DNA of 51,578 bases from Nitrososphaerota archaeon (GTDB taxonomy: Archaea > Thermoproteota > Nitrososphaeria_A > Caldarchaeales > Wolframiiraptoraceae), in contig JAGGTD010000063.1 of the NCBI GenBank assembly GCA_021163925.1, positions 1 to 51,578 of the forward strand. The letters run 5' to 3'. The position numbers and the translations under genes were made by a program. Every line of letters begins with the position of its first letter. The first letter of the stretch is position 1. Shown one piece after another: positions 3,439 to 34,297 of the stretch. Below the pieces are notes generated by a model. It ran no database searches. It was not told where the DNA came from and saw only the letters and a program-made list of their open reading frames with translations.

Positions 3439-4098
3439 ATGAGGTTTCCAACAGGTCTCATAGAACTCGACGAGGAATTGGGCGGAGGCTTTCCAACAGG
3501 ATCTATAGCCTTAATCTATGGAGAGGAGAAGTCGGGTAAGACCAGCCTAGCCCTAAAGCTCTGCGCCCTAGCGGCTCGAAAGGGCCGAGCGGCATATATC
3601 GACTGCTCAAACAGACTTCATCCACTTAGGCTTGAGCAGATCCTTAGATGGAATAGGGTTGATCGGTCTAGGCTCTTAATCCTGTCGATCGAGAGCTTCC
3701 TCCAACAGGAGGAGGTGGTGCTAAGGCTCCATGATTATCCTCCACCCGCTCCGCTGATAGTCTTAGACGACTTCACCTTTAGGCATAGGCTTGAGATCAA
3801 GGGCGATGTAAAGCAGGATACCCCGATCTATGAGAGGCTTGCATTCCAGCTCGCTGCCTTGAAGGAGGCGGCCATGAAGAGGGATATAGCGATAGTGGTT
3901 GTGGGGCAGGTTCACACCCTACCGGATACCGGTGAGACGAGGGCTGTGGCCCATAGAATACTCACCTATTGGTCTGATTATGTGTTGAGGGTTGTGAGGA
4001 GGTTTGGGGAGAGGTGTGGGAGGATTTGGATAGAGAAGCCTGAGAGGAAGGGCGCTTATAGGTTTAGGATCGCTAAGTCAGGTGTTACATCGTGTTAA
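3439..4098 (+). CDS. RecA-superfamily ATPase, RadB-like
   Basis: TGLIELDEELGGGFPTGSIALIYGEEKSGKTSLA Walker A and VVVGQVHT; short single-domain protein. Confidence 0.75.
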   Translation: MRFPTGLIELDEELGGGFPTGSIALIYGEEKSGKTSLALKLCALAARKGRAAYIDCSNRLHPLRLEQILRWNRVDRSRLLILSIESFLQQEEVVLRLHDYPPPAPLIVLDDFTFRHRLEIKGDVKQDTPIYERLAFQLAALKEAAMKRDIAIVVVGQVHTLPDTGETRAVAHRILTYWSDYVLRVVRRFGERCGRIWIEKPERKGAYRFRIAKSGVTSC

Positions 4099-4104
4099 GC
4101 GGAC

Positions 4105-4503
4105 TCATGGTCGGGTGAATTTGGCTATGAAGGCGGAGTAAAGCCCCAATCCCGCGAGGAGTACTAGGAGGAAGCTGAAGAAGAGCATGTATTTCGTCGT
4201 TCTAGGGTCTCCAGATCTGGTCGCCGCGTTCACGTATAGCCAGAGCCCCCCAAACCCCATCAAATAATATAGTAAGATTATCATGGTCTCGGCATGGGTT
4301 TGGGCGTTGATAGTCCAGATGAAGACTCTCACCCCACCTCCTCGGAGGAATATGAGCCCTAAGACGTTCTCCGCGGTTATGGAGTAGATCGATCCGCTGA
4401 CAAGGACTAGGATCGCCAATATTATCGCGACGATTATCGCCTTATTCACGGTCTCCGATCTCATGAAGTCTGAAATCTTCTTGCCGATCTTCTCTAGGGA
4501 CAT
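4105..4503 (-). CDS. Small multi-TM protein resembling the OST3/OST6 (TUSC3/MagT1) membrane domain
   Basis: Hydrophobic segments; ...VSGSIYS...NAQTHAETMIILLYY...NAATRSGDPRTTKY... matches the family pattern by eye. Confidence 0.6.
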   Translation of the reverse strand: MSLEKIGKKISDFMRSETVNKAIIVAIILAILVLVSGSIYSITAENVLGLIFLRGGGVRVFIWTINAQTHAETMIILLYYLMGFGGLWLYVNAATRSGDPRTTKYMLFFSFLLVLLAGLGLYSAFIAKFTRP

Positions 4504-4539: not shown

Positions 4540-6087
4540 TTACCCGCTTCTCGCCCTGAATTCGAGCATAACTCCATTCTCCTCGATGAAGCTCCTCCTA
4601 AGGCTATATAGCTTGGGAATCAAGCTCTCATCGACGGCGAGAACCACCTTATCTAGGGAGACGAACTCTATGGATGCTTTCGGGTCAAGTGATCTAATCT
4701 GTTTAATTAGGTGCTCCGCTCTCTCCCTCAAATACTCGACTCTCTCCTTAACTTTCTTAACCTCGATGATCAACCTTCCACCATCCGAGTAGATCTCATA
4801 CTCGAGATCTCCCTTCGGCAGGGCTCTGACCTCTACGAGCGGCTTAACGTGGGTTGGATCTCTTCCAGTTGGAGCTCGGATCACCATCCCCAATTCATAG
4901 ATCTTCAGGATTTTATCTGCGGCTAGGATGAGGAAGTTTAAGGTTTTCGCTAGGAGATCTAGTTCAAGCCTGCTCACAAACCTCTTCAACACTTGAAGCG
5001 GGTCATCCGCGTAGATTATCCCTATCACGCCTATCCCGGCGAGCCTAAGCTTTACGAATGATTTGAAGTCCTTTGAATCGCTCATATCGTTGAGGATGAC
5101 GTAATCGGGCTTGAGGTGGATTAAGAAGTCCGCAGTCTTCTCAACATCTCCCTCAAGCGGGCCATAGCATGTTAAGCTTCCATTCTCTCCAAGCATCCTA
5201 CCATATTCGACTATCCTGACCATCTTCCCTCTTTCTCGGAGCATGTTCATGAGGATCTTAGAGAGTTCGAGAACTCCCGATTCGGGCGCCCCGATCAAGA
5301 GGACCCCCGCGGATTTATCCGAGACCCTCTCGATCAAGGTGTTTAGTTGCTTGACATCAACTCTAGGCTTAAATGATAATCTCCTGACTATGAGTTCGAG
5401 CTTGTCCGAGAATGGTGGTTTGGCGACGGCTACCCTATAATCTCTCAACTGTAGGATCATGGCCCCAGACTTCAAGATCATTATGCCGCACTCATCGCTT
5501 AACCTACATTCGCCGATGATCTCCTCGATGAGCTCATTCACTTCCTCCTCGCTCAGCGGCTTATCTCCAACCTTGACCAGCTTGACCTCATCTCCATCCA
5601 CGATTTTCGCCATGGGATAATAGCCTGAGATGAATTCGAGTAGAACTGTCTCAGGAGTGAGGTAGTCTTCAAACCTGAACCTCTCCTTCCTCACATAGGC
5701 TTCAACGTACTTCACCGGTATCCCCTCAGCCTCTGCAACCAAGGCTTGAACATAATCCGACGTGTATAGAATTCCCTTCTCAGTTTTTGCCACGTCCCTG
5801 ATGAGGGCGTCTATCCTACCGCTTCTCGCGAGCTTTATGTCTTCTAGGCTCGGCCTCTCACCAACGAATCTCACCGCCAACCCCTTAGATTCGGCCAGCT
5901 CCCTTATCCTCTTCACCTCTTCAAGTCCCTTGAAGCCGACATCCCTCCCCTTCGATGCTTGGGCTTGAAGCTCGTCTATCACGGCAGCTGGAATTATTAT
6001 CTCGCATTCAGCTATCTCTCCGCTCTCAAGCATCTTCGAGAATCTGCCATTAATCACGATGCTCGTGTCTAAAACCGCCTTATCCAT
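4540..6087 (-). CDS. PIN domain-ATPase-KH-like protein with degenerate ATPase motifs
   Basis: N-terminal PIN motif VLDTSIVINGR; PilT-like middle region; KH-like C-terminus. Confidence 0.75.
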   Translation of the reverse strand: MDKAVLDTSIVINGRFSKMLESGEIAECEIIIPAAVIDELQAQASKGRDVGFKGLEEVKRIRELAESKGLAVRFVGERPSLEDIKLARSGRIDALIRDVAKTEKGILYTSDYVQALVAEAEGIPVKYVEAYVRKERFRFEDYLTPETVLLEFISGYYPMAKIVDGDEVKLVKVGDKPLSEEEVNELIEEIIGECRLSDECGIMILKSGAMILQLRDYRVAVAKPPFSDKLELIVRRLSFKPRVDVKQLNTLIERVSDKSAGVLLIGAPESGVLELSKILMNMLRERGKMVRIVEYGRMLGENGSLTCYGPLEGDVEKTADFLIHLKPDYVILNDMSDSKDFKSFVKLRLAGIGVIGIIYADDPLQVLKRFVSRLELDLLAKTLNFLILAADKILKIYELGMVIRAPTGRDPTHVKPLVEVRALPKGDLEYEIYSDGGRLIIEVKKVKERVEYLRERAEHLIKQIRSLDPKASIEFVSLDKVVLAVDESLIPKLYSLRRSFIEENGVMLEFRARSG

Positions 6088-31049: not shown

Positions 31050-33014
31050 CTAGAATCCGGCTCTAATCCTAGAATATCCAGCCGAATCCCTATAGACCTC
31101 TATTATGTTCGATGCTTCCTCGATACCCCTCCCATGATGGGTTATGATGATGGCTTGATCAACATATCTCGCTATCCTCGATAATTGGTTTAAGAGTGTC
31201 TGTAGATTCTCTTCATCCACTCCGTAGGTCGGCTCGTCGAGGATTATGAGCGACCTCACCCCTAGGTGATGTATTATCGCGAGCCTCAGGGAGAGCGAGA
31301 TTAGGGTTTGATGCCCTCCACCAACCCTGCTAGCCGGTATGTAATCCGATAGGCCGCGTGGCTTGACATAGACCCTATAATTCTCCGGATCTATCCTGAA
31401 GGATGTATAGATTCTCTGATCGGTTAAGCTCGTGAATATCGCTTGGGCTCTTAGAGCTATTGATCTGAGTAGCTCGTCTCTCCTCTTCTTGATGAAGTCT
31501 ATGATCCTCTCCCTGAGATTCGATGCGAAGGACATTACCCTAGACCTCTTCTCAAGCTCTTTTAGACGGGTCTTCAGCTTTTCAAGCTCAGCTCTCTCCC
31601 TCCCAAGTTCTCCAAGCCTCTCCCTCAATCTCCCTTCGAGGATCTCCACTCTCTTCCTTTTCTCCTCGATCTCCCCCGGAGCTTGGAACATCTGGGTCAA
31701 TCTCTCGTATAATTTTGGATCATCTGGATCTAAATCCAAGCCGAGCCTCCTCAGGATCCCTTCCACATCCAGTCTGATGGATTTTACGATCTTCTCCTTC
31801 TCAGCTATCCTCGTGTCATACTCCGAGATTGAGTTCATCAGCATGTTTAGTCTCTCACGCCTCCTAGTGATCTCGCTGATCTCACGATTAATCGATTCAA
31901 GCTTGGATTCGAGTTCCTGCTTTCTCCTTCGCACATCAATTAACCTCTCCTTTAGGTCGGCGATCCTCAGCTCCTCATCCTCGATTATCGATGAAAGAAT
32001 CTTCTCATCTATCCTCTGACCGCATGTCGGGCATTTTGCAACACCCTTCATCTTTAGTTCGAGCCGAGCTTTATGACCGTCCTCTAAGATTTTTAGTTCT
32101 CCGAAGATCTTGGCCTCTCTTTCTCTCAGCATTCCAACTTCCTCCTCGACTGATTTCAGATCCACCTCAAGATCCCTCAACATCTCAGCAAGTCTCCCGG
32201 ATTCGCGTCTAACGGATTCGAGATCCTTCAATCCATATCTGGCTAGAATAGATCTCTTTGAGTTGATGGCCTCTAGGAGCATGGCCTTGGCCTCCTCCAG
32301 CTCTCTCGCTTTCCCGATAAGTCTCTTAACGGCTGGATCCTCCCCCAGCCTCAAACTACTTTTCAGATCTTCGAGTTCCTTGTTTAATTCGTCAACTTCC
32401 CGCTGAAGCTCCTTGACTCTCTCCTCTCTCAGCGGGATTAGCTGGGTCTTCATTAGCTTGTATTCCGACTCGGTTCCCCTTAGATCCCGGATCACGATAT
32501 TCAGCTGCTCCGAGATCTCTCTTAGGAGGGTTATCTGGAGTATTGCATCCATATCCTCCCTCCTCGGCTCGAGTATTTCATTCAATCTTCCCTGTCTTGA
32601 GTATATTATCCAGTTGAACGCCCTATATCCTATTCCGATCAGCCTCGTTATCCTCCTCCTCAGGTCTTCAAGTCCCTCGACCTGAACCTCCCTTCTATCG
32701 ATTATCAGCCTGACCTCTTTCGTAGCAAACCTATTTCTCCTGAGTTCGGCGAACCTCATTATCTCAACCCTTGAGCCGTTTACGGGGCTTCTGAACCTAA
32801 GATAGGTCTCCATGCCCCTCACCCCCTTCTCCCTTCGAACTAGTAGCCTGTTCTCGACGCTCGGCACATTTCCGAATAGGGTGTATACTATTGCGTCTAG
32901 GATAGTCGTCTTCCCTACAGAGTTTCTCCCAGTTATCAGGTTTAATCCTCTCGTGAACGTTATCTTCTCATCCCTGAATCCCTCGAAGTTCCTGAGCCTA
33001 AGCTCCTCTATCAT
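31050..33014 (-). CDS. rad50: DNA double-strand break repair ATPase Rad50
   Basis: LITGRNSVGKTTILDAI, zinc hook CPTCG, VGGGHQTLISLSLRLAI signature, LIILDEPTYGVD. Confidence 0.95.
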   Translation of the reverse strand: MIEELRLRNFEGFRDEKITFTRGLNLITGRNSVGKTTILDAIVYTLFGNVPSVENRLLVRREKGVRGMETYLRFRSPVNGSRVEIMRFAELRRNRFATKEVRLIIDRREVQVEGLEDLRRRITRLIGIGYRAFNWIIYSRQGRLNEILEPRREDMDAILQITLLREISEQLNIVIRDLRGTESEYKLMKTQLIPLREERVKELQREVDELNKELEDLKSSLRLGEDPAVKRLIGKARELEEAKAMLLEAINSKRSILARYGLKDLESVRRESGRLAEMLRDLEVDLKSVEEEVGMLREREAKIFGELKILEDGHKARLELKMKGVAKCPTCGQRIDEKILSSIIEDEELRIADLKERLIDVRRRKQELESKLESINREISEITRRRERLNMLMNSISEYDTRIAEKEKIVKSIRLDVEGILRRLGLDLDPDDPKLYERLTQMFQAPGEIEEKRKRVEILEGRLRERLGELGRERAELEKLKTRLKELEKRSRVMSFASNLRERIIDFIKKRRDELLRSIALRAQAIFTSLTDQRIYTSFRIDPENYRVYVKPRGLSDYIPASRVGGGHQTLISLSLRLAIIHHLGVRSLIILDEPTYGVDEENLQTLLNQLSRIARYVDQAIIITHHGRGIEEASNIIEVYRDSAGYSRIRAGF

Positions 33015-34297
33015 GACTCCTCACCAACATAACTTGAAAGTAATTTCAGCCATCTATCTGAGAACCTCCTCCTATCGAGCTCCTTTAGAAGCCCCGTCCT
33101 CTCGCTCGCCCTCTCATCTAAGGCCATGGCAACGTCCTCGACGATCTCGGCGGCCTCCCCAACCCTCTCCCCCAATACTCCGAAGACCTCTTTAACTATC
33201 TCATCTCTTGAGATCCTCCCCTCAACGCCTTTAACATCAGGTCTGATCATGGTGGAGAGTTCCTCTGAGATCTCGACGTGGATCAGCTTATCGTATCTCT
33301 CAATGAGCTTTTGGACCTCTTCTTGGAGACCTAGCTGTGGGAACGGCTCATCACCCGCAACTATTCCAGATACATTGAGCTTGAGGATTCCATCCCTGTC
33401 CAGATTTAAGGCGAATGACTCGATCTCCTCCAAGCACCTCCTCCTAAACCAGTCGAGCTCCATGGGCTCATCGCTCACAATCTTCCTAACGCCTATCATT
33501 TGAAGCGGCTCCAGCTCCACAAATTTATGGGAGGTAAGCTCCGATCCCTTCACATCCAAGATATAGACTCCGAACGGCCCTCTCTCGCCGAGGTCTATGG
33601 CTTCGGTCGCGCCGGGGACAAGGAAGAGCTTTCCATGAATCTTCTTGAATCCAAGCCTCTCATGGTGGTGGCCGGTTATCACGAGATCCACATCCAGCTT
33701 CTCCAAATCCTCCAATCTTATCACGCTGTGTTCCGGTGTTTGAGGGGGAATATTGTGTACGCCTTCAACATAGTTATGTAGGATGAGGATTCTATAGCCG
33801 TCTGCCTCCACTTTCTTCAGGATCTCCGATGCCTCCTCGAATTTTCTCCTAGCATATGGATGGTATCCCATCCCGATTACGTTTAACCTGTCTCCAACAT
33901 ATGCCTCCTCCACTCCCTCCAGCGTCTTCTCTCCTATGACCTTGAAGTATTCGGCCATTGGATGGGTTATGAAGTCTAGAGCGTTGCTCGATGGTGAGCC
34001 ATCATGATTCCCTCTAACCGCGATTATCTCGATCTTCTTCCCAGATCTCTCCTCAATCTTCTTCGCCAATCTATAGAACTCCCATTTAACGAATACCGCG
34101 TCGTCTGGGGTCATGCTCCTCTTCTCGAATAGATCTCCGGCGTGGATCACGTAGTCCACGTCATTCTCTATGAAGATGTCTATGGCCTGCTTGAAGGCGT
34201 GTCTAAACGCCCTCCTCCTAGCATCCCTCAAAACCCTCGGGATGTTTCTCCCGATATGCGTGTCGCTGAAGACCCCTATCCTCAAACCCTCAGCCAT
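33011..34297 (-). CDS. mre11: DNA double-strand break repair nuclease Mre11
   Basis: GVFSDTHIG, HAGDLFE, VRGNHD and ITGHHH phosphodiesterase motifs; overlaps rad50. Confidence 0.95.
   Translation of the reverse strand: MAEGLRIGVFSDTHIGRNIPRVLRDARRRAFRHAFKQAIDIFIENDVDYVIHAGDLFEKRSMTPDDAVFVKWEFYRLAKKIEERSGKKIEIIAVRGNHDGSPSSNALDFITHPMAEYFKVIGEKTLEGVEEAYVGDRLNVIGMGYHPYARRKFEEASEILKKVEADGYRILILHNYVEGVHNIPPQTPEHSVIRLEDLEKLDVDLVITGHHHERLGFKKIHGKLFLVPGATEAIDLGERGPFGVYILDVKGSELTSHKFVELEPLQMIGVRKIVSDEPMELDWFRRRCLEEIESFALNLDRDGILKLNVSGIVAGDEPFPQLGLQEEVQKLIERYDKLIHVEISEELSTMIRPDVKGVEGRISRDEIVKEVFGVLGERVGEAAEIVEDVAMALDERASERTGLLKELDRRRFSDRWLKLLSSYVGEES

Follow-up and report, generated by a model that had tools for sequence, protein, structure and literature searches.

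A thioredoxin-less OST3/OST6 superfamily protein with OSTC/DC2 architecture, a predicted non-catalytic partner of archaeal AglB

OST accessory subunits and an archaeal gene

In the eukaryotic oligosaccharyltransferase (OST), three helices of Ost3 touch TMH10, 11 and 13 of Stt3, Ost3 TMH2 contributes to the donor pocket, and TMH3-4 of Ost3 pack on Sec61 (PMC7226087). DC2 replaces Ost3/6 in OST-A and links OST-A to Sec61 (PMC7226087), and a structure from 2025 shows the DC2 beta-hairpin touching the displaced SEC61 plug (PMC12804085). The archaeal OST is usually viewed as AglB alone (Table 1 of PMC7226087), and in a survey from 2016 no homologs of the non-catalytic OST subunits were found in archaea (PMC4973528). 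Later work reported Ost1, Ost3 and further subunits in Asgard archaea (PMC10307638), and a 2024 paper gives OST1 and OST3/6 as occurring in TACK and Asgard archaea, with the TACK presence stated in one sentence (PMC11417166). The protein analyzed here very likely belongs to the same archaeal family as these TACK/Asgard OST3/6 homologs (PMC11417166, PMC10307638); thus, homology to OST3/6 is not in itself a new finding. Among the open-access papers that we searched, we found none that describes the OSTC-type architecture, the linkage to aglB, or the link to AglB type.

The window, by which we mean the entire 51,578-nucleotide stretch of DNA analyzed, comes from a heat-loving archaeon of the Nitrososphaerota whose genome is only 81% complete. 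An open reading frame on the minus strand, starting with the ATG at 4503, encodes a 132-aa protein. Compared with the nearest relative (84% identical), codon positions 1, 2 and 3 differ at 20, 4 and 47 sites, giving a dN of 0.093, a dS of 0.74 and a dN/dS of about 0.13. This third-position bias, together with the low dN relative to dS, indicates that the frame is a gene under purifying selection, and hence that it is real and conserved. Relatives in the phylum keep its length and motifs. The nearest named ones are found in MAGs labelled Thaumarchaeota, Aigarchaeota, Geocrenenecus and Wolframiiraptor. The coordinates of the gene, its segments and its neighbors are collected in Table 1.

Table 1 Features of the OSTC-like gene and its immediate surroundings in the window.
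Feature	Position	Strand	Basis
Gene for the 132-aa OSTC/OST3-like membrane protein	4105..4503	-	ORF, purifying selection, PF04756, profile matches, fold match
Short N-terminal helix, residues 3-14; K/R-rich N-terminus (K+R 4 in residues 1-20), putatively cytoplasmic	4462..4497	-	AF2
Transmembrane helix 1, residues 17-43; SGSIY near its end	4375..4455	-	AF2, OSTC/MagT1 alignments
Predicted extracellular loop with short beta-hairpin, residues 44-69	4297..4374	-	AF2 (strands 51-52, 58-59)
Transmembrane helix 2, residues 70-95, with E72 and G86	4219..4296	-	AF2, conservation
Transmembrane helix 3, residues 100-129, R101 to K128	4117..4206	-	AF2; conservation of R101 and K128
515-aa PIN-domain protein, co-directional, upstream, 36 bp away; same neighbor in related genera	4540..6087	-	
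219-aa RecA/Rad51-like ATPase, convergent neighbor	3439..4098	+	

Family membership and predicted fold

The protein carries the motifs SGSIY (residues 36-40), QTHAETMIIL (68-77) and NAATRSGDPR (92-101), followed by a hydrophobic segment that runs to K128. G37 and G86 do not vary across 38 diverse sequences, Q68 and E72 hardly do, and in a closer set of relatives R101 and K128 are also nearly invariant. Searched on its own against Pfam, the protein matches a single relevant family, PF04756 (OST3_OST6), with an E-value of 4.9e-4 and a score of 20 bits, below the curated cut-off of 27; the match covers positions 182-288 of the profile, which correspond to the membrane part. At the level of the family, 34 of 39 archaeal relatives, the window protein included, match PF04756, the best at 5.4e-10. 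NCBIfam holds no model for the protein, and phage records returned no match.

Profile searches against 177,635 distinct PDB sequences gave credible matches only to OSTC (two distinct chain sequences) and MagT1 (one). The profile built from the 39 relatives matched OSTC at 2.5e-9 and 6.6e-9 and MagT1 at 6.8e-6, and a broad 38-member profile matched OSTC at 6.1e-13 and 6.1e-12 and MagT1 at 5.8e-10, with the next hit at an E-value of 1.1. Aligned by hhalign to the single sequences, the broad profile reached probabilities of 95.9% for OSTC and 90.1% for MagT1. In these alignments SGSIY pairs with GGIIY in OSTC and SGQMW in MagT1, and QTHAET with QYIMEG in OSTC and QFVAET in MagT1. A phmmer search of the PDB with the single protein yielded nothing but matches to repetitive polyubiquitin and the NaK channel, which were discarded as artefacts of repeats and hydrophobicity.

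An AlphaFold2 (AF2) model computed from a 39-sequence alignment has a mean pLDDT of 91.8 and consists of three transmembrane helices preceded by the short N-terminal helix. In the model, each strand of the hairpin in the loop between the first two transmembrane helices is just two residues long, and the loop ends at the nearly invariant Q68. When the model was compared with 350,542 PDB chains by Foldseek, ranks 1-8 were all OSTC, MagT1, Ost3 or Ost6, each with a probability of 1.00: the OSTC chains 9n9j_J, 8b6l_J, 6s7o_H and 8pn9_H and the MagT1 chain 6s7t_H, whose identities were taken from the profile matches to PDB sequences, as well as 8age_H, 8agc_H and 7oci_C. Going by the entry titles and the known make-up of the complex, we take 8age_H and 8agc_H to be the yeast Ost3-position chains and 7oci_C to be Ost6. 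The superposition on 8pn9_H has an rmsd of 1.9 and TM scores of 0.72/0.84. The E-values of the OST group lie between 2e-3 and 4e-2, none below 0.001, as expected since the protein is small and helical; rank 9 is unrelated (E 2.7), and hits past rank 8 are noise. By this comparison the AF2 model has the three-helix fold of the solved OST subunits. We conclude that the 132-aa protein is a member of the OST3/OST6 superfamily that consists of the membrane core only.

The protein shares with OST3/OST6, TUSC3 and MagT1 the TM2-TM4 membrane core, the SGxxY/W and QxxAE elements and the loop motifs, but it has neither their thioredoxin domain with its CxxC nor their first transmembrane helix, so that three helices take the place of the four in a strict OST3/OST6 protein. 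CxxC is absent from all aligned rows (39 and 38) and from 105 frames of relatives, and no thioredoxin fusion was found among the relatives examined, the longest of the 105 frames being 207 aa. This indicates that the thioredoxin domain is absent throughout rather than lost in one species. Elsewhere in the genome, the thioredoxin part of PF04756 is matched by an ordinary soluble thioredoxin, which has no membrane helix and is therefore not an obvious split partner. Lacking both the thioredoxin domain and the first helix of OST3, the archaeal architecture is that of OSTC/DC2 of human OST-A: three helices, a short hairpin loop between TM1 and TM2, and no thioredoxin domain, as seen in the AF2 model, the Foldseek comparison and the CxxC scan. 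The G-x-x-Y, Q and E positions are shared as well, helix 1 is the counterpart of OSTC TM1 and OST3 TM2, and OSTC gave the best sequence match (6e-13) and is among the best folds. The archaeal protein differs from OSTC/DC2 in its shorter N-terminal extension, and in having an archaeal host with a simple AglB. By score and architecture, its closest eukaryotic counterpart is OSTC/DC2; that OSTC outscores MagT1 no more than hints at common descent with OSTC instead of OST3/6.

The first-pass annotation, made from the letters of the DNA, had called this frame, at its exact position, an OST3/OST6-like membrane domain. The motifs it quoted (SGxxY/W, Q-x-Q/T-x-A-E-x-x-I-I-L and N/E-A-A-T-x-(S)GD) are present, and the OSTC and MagT1 alignments around SGSIY and QTHAET confirm them; the topology it expected agrees with the AF2 fold and the first eight Foldseek ranks, and the redox CxxC domain that it found missing is missing from every relative examined. 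The match to PF04756 that it proposed as a check was obtained for the family, while the lone window protein stayed under the cut-off. Its naming of the protein after OST3/OST6 holds for the superfamily but passed over OSTC/DC2, the closest counterpart.

Linkage and co-distribution with AglB

AglB is present as one clear copy in the window's own genome, where the OSTC-like gene lies on a different contig from aglB (C3 vs C24). The broad profile (E < 1e-7) detected the OSTC-like gene in 113 of 200 genomes of the phylum. Among the 103 genomes with both genes, aglB lies within 2 kb in 18, within 5 kb in 34 and within 10 kb in 46; the pairs span 6, 9 and 15 families, respectively, and the counts are not phylogenetically independent. 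The chance expectation for a distance of at most 5 kb is about 0.7% per genome. Four further pairs, 3-4 kb apart, were found with the broad profile in a single family (f10), making 34 a lower bound. Pfam matches at two loci confirmed that the neighboring aglB encodes STT3. A second genus of the window's family has the OSTC-like gene and aglB adjacent and divergent, and the linkage was therefore probably lost in the window's genus. This recurrent proximity in other genomes supports the accessory-subunit role that had been suggested from the sequence at first reading.

The two genes also tend to occur together. The OSTC-like gene is present in 112 of 187 genomes with AglB and in 1 of 13 without it (Fisher p 2.4e-4, uncorrected for relatedness). 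On a tree of 68 AglB sequences, its presence requires 4 changes compared with 21.0 for shuffled labels, a low count that is in part expected from shared ancestry. Within family f33, however, the AglB of the genome with the OSTC-like gene falls in the main 'plus' clade, whereas the three genomes without the gene have very different, long-branched AglB sequences. One 'plus'-clade AglB comes from a genome without the OSTC-like gene (G007, 76% complete). In genomes without the gene, the region beside aglB contained no convincing divergent copy (best E 0.02). Ribophorin I (PF04597) was not detected in the window's genome, at its 81% completeness. As side observations, the f33 AglB proteins fall into two very different types, G103, G127 and G181 vs G121 (L124, L123, L119, L109), and the OSTC-like gene accompanies only the STT3-like type. 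G001, whose genome is rated as 100% complete, has an OSTC-like gene at G001:C44:122380-122736 and no STT3 match at 1e-6.

Proposed role and alternatives

Taken together, we consider it highly probable that this archaeal, thioredoxin-less protein, which combines membership in the OST3/OST6 superfamily with OSTC/DC2 architecture, is a non-catalytic subunit predicted to bind AglB. We infer a topology with the N-terminus in the cytoplasm, three transmembrane helices joined by a short extracellular hairpin loop, and the C-terminus outside. Compared with eukaryotic Ost3/DC2, the archaeal protein retains just the three contacting helices and the hairpin. Its presumed partner AglB, like PglB a single-subunit OST, is encoded in the genome; the protein would bind this archaeal STT3 on the face equivalent to the Ost3/OSTC site, formed by helices 10, 11 and 13, and would complete the membrane groove for the lipid-linked sugar donor. 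It may also dock AglB to SecY, by analogy with its eukaryotic counterparts, in which case AglB would be held beside the channel and secreted proteins would be glycosylated as they emerge. Having no CxxC domain, the protein lacks the means for the disulfide chemistry of OST3/OST6.

The protein might instead work beside AglB without being a stable subunit, as a transporter of magnesium or another small solute, an activity once proposed for MagT1. We regard this as very unlikely: the description of PF04756 does read 'OST3 / OST6 family, transporter family', but the protein has only three helices and no recognisable transport site, OSTC and Ost3, which have the same fold, are structural OST subunits, and the linkage to aglB also argues for a subunit. 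Slightly less probable still is degeneration in this lineage, by which an OST3/OST6 protein would have shed its thioredoxin domain and its first helix. Both parts are indeed missing; however, the relatives examined have neither a CxxC nor a frame longer than 207 aa, purifying selection acts on the 132-aa gene, and the best match is OSTC, which naturally lacks thioredoxin.

The remaining alternative, to which we give hardly any credence, holds that the resemblance to OST3 is no more than shared hydrophobicity and that the function is tied to the conserved RecA-like or PIN-domain neighbors. The RecA/Rad51-like gene adjoins or lies near the OSTC-like gene in about 21 of 23 loci from distant families (including L070-L088), and is a more constant neighbor than aglB. 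Yet the profile and fold matches are to OST chains only, the distribution of the gene follows the AglB lineage, and the RecA-like gene is convergent and therefore not co-transcribed with it.

The reading as an AglB subunit bears on how archaeal glycosylation is viewed. With an OSTC-like gene so often beside aglB, sugar transfer in archaea is probably not the work of a single protein. A conserved partner gene next to aglB in many lineages would mean that an accessory subunit, and perhaps the coupling of glycosylation to export, predates eukaryotes. Given that the best match is the naturally thioredoxin-less OSTC/DC2, the archaeal protein need not be an OST3/6 minus its thioredoxin domain, and the thioredoxin-less form may be the older architecture. 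Tentatively, and with somewhat less than even confidence, we suggest that N-glycosylation in a large part of the TACK archaea is carried out by a complex of AglB with a SecY-docking, OSTC/DC2-like subunit and not by AglB alone, and that this thioredoxin-less subunit is the ancestral form to which eukaryotes added a thioredoxin domain to give OST3/OST6. Small AglB-plus-partner pairs from thermophiles make the core function of OST3/OSTC testable without the rest of the eukaryotic complex.

Several features of the surrounding genes were recorded alongside. The RecA/Rad51-like gene is mostly directly beside the OSTC-like gene or one gene off, the intervening gene often being a CDP-archaeol synthase. 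The upstream PIN-domain protein appears to combine a PIN domain with an ATPase whose P-loop has decayed: the site reads GPPGSGKTT in L004 (4042-5868), GAPESGVLE in the window copy, which falls short of the L004 copy by about 90 residues, and NLDGVYVFP in L009 (4398-5957). Farther along the window, at 31050-34297 on the minus strand, a Rad50-like and a Mre11-like gene lie side by side with a four-base overlap and look, by eye, like an ordinary archaeal repair pair.
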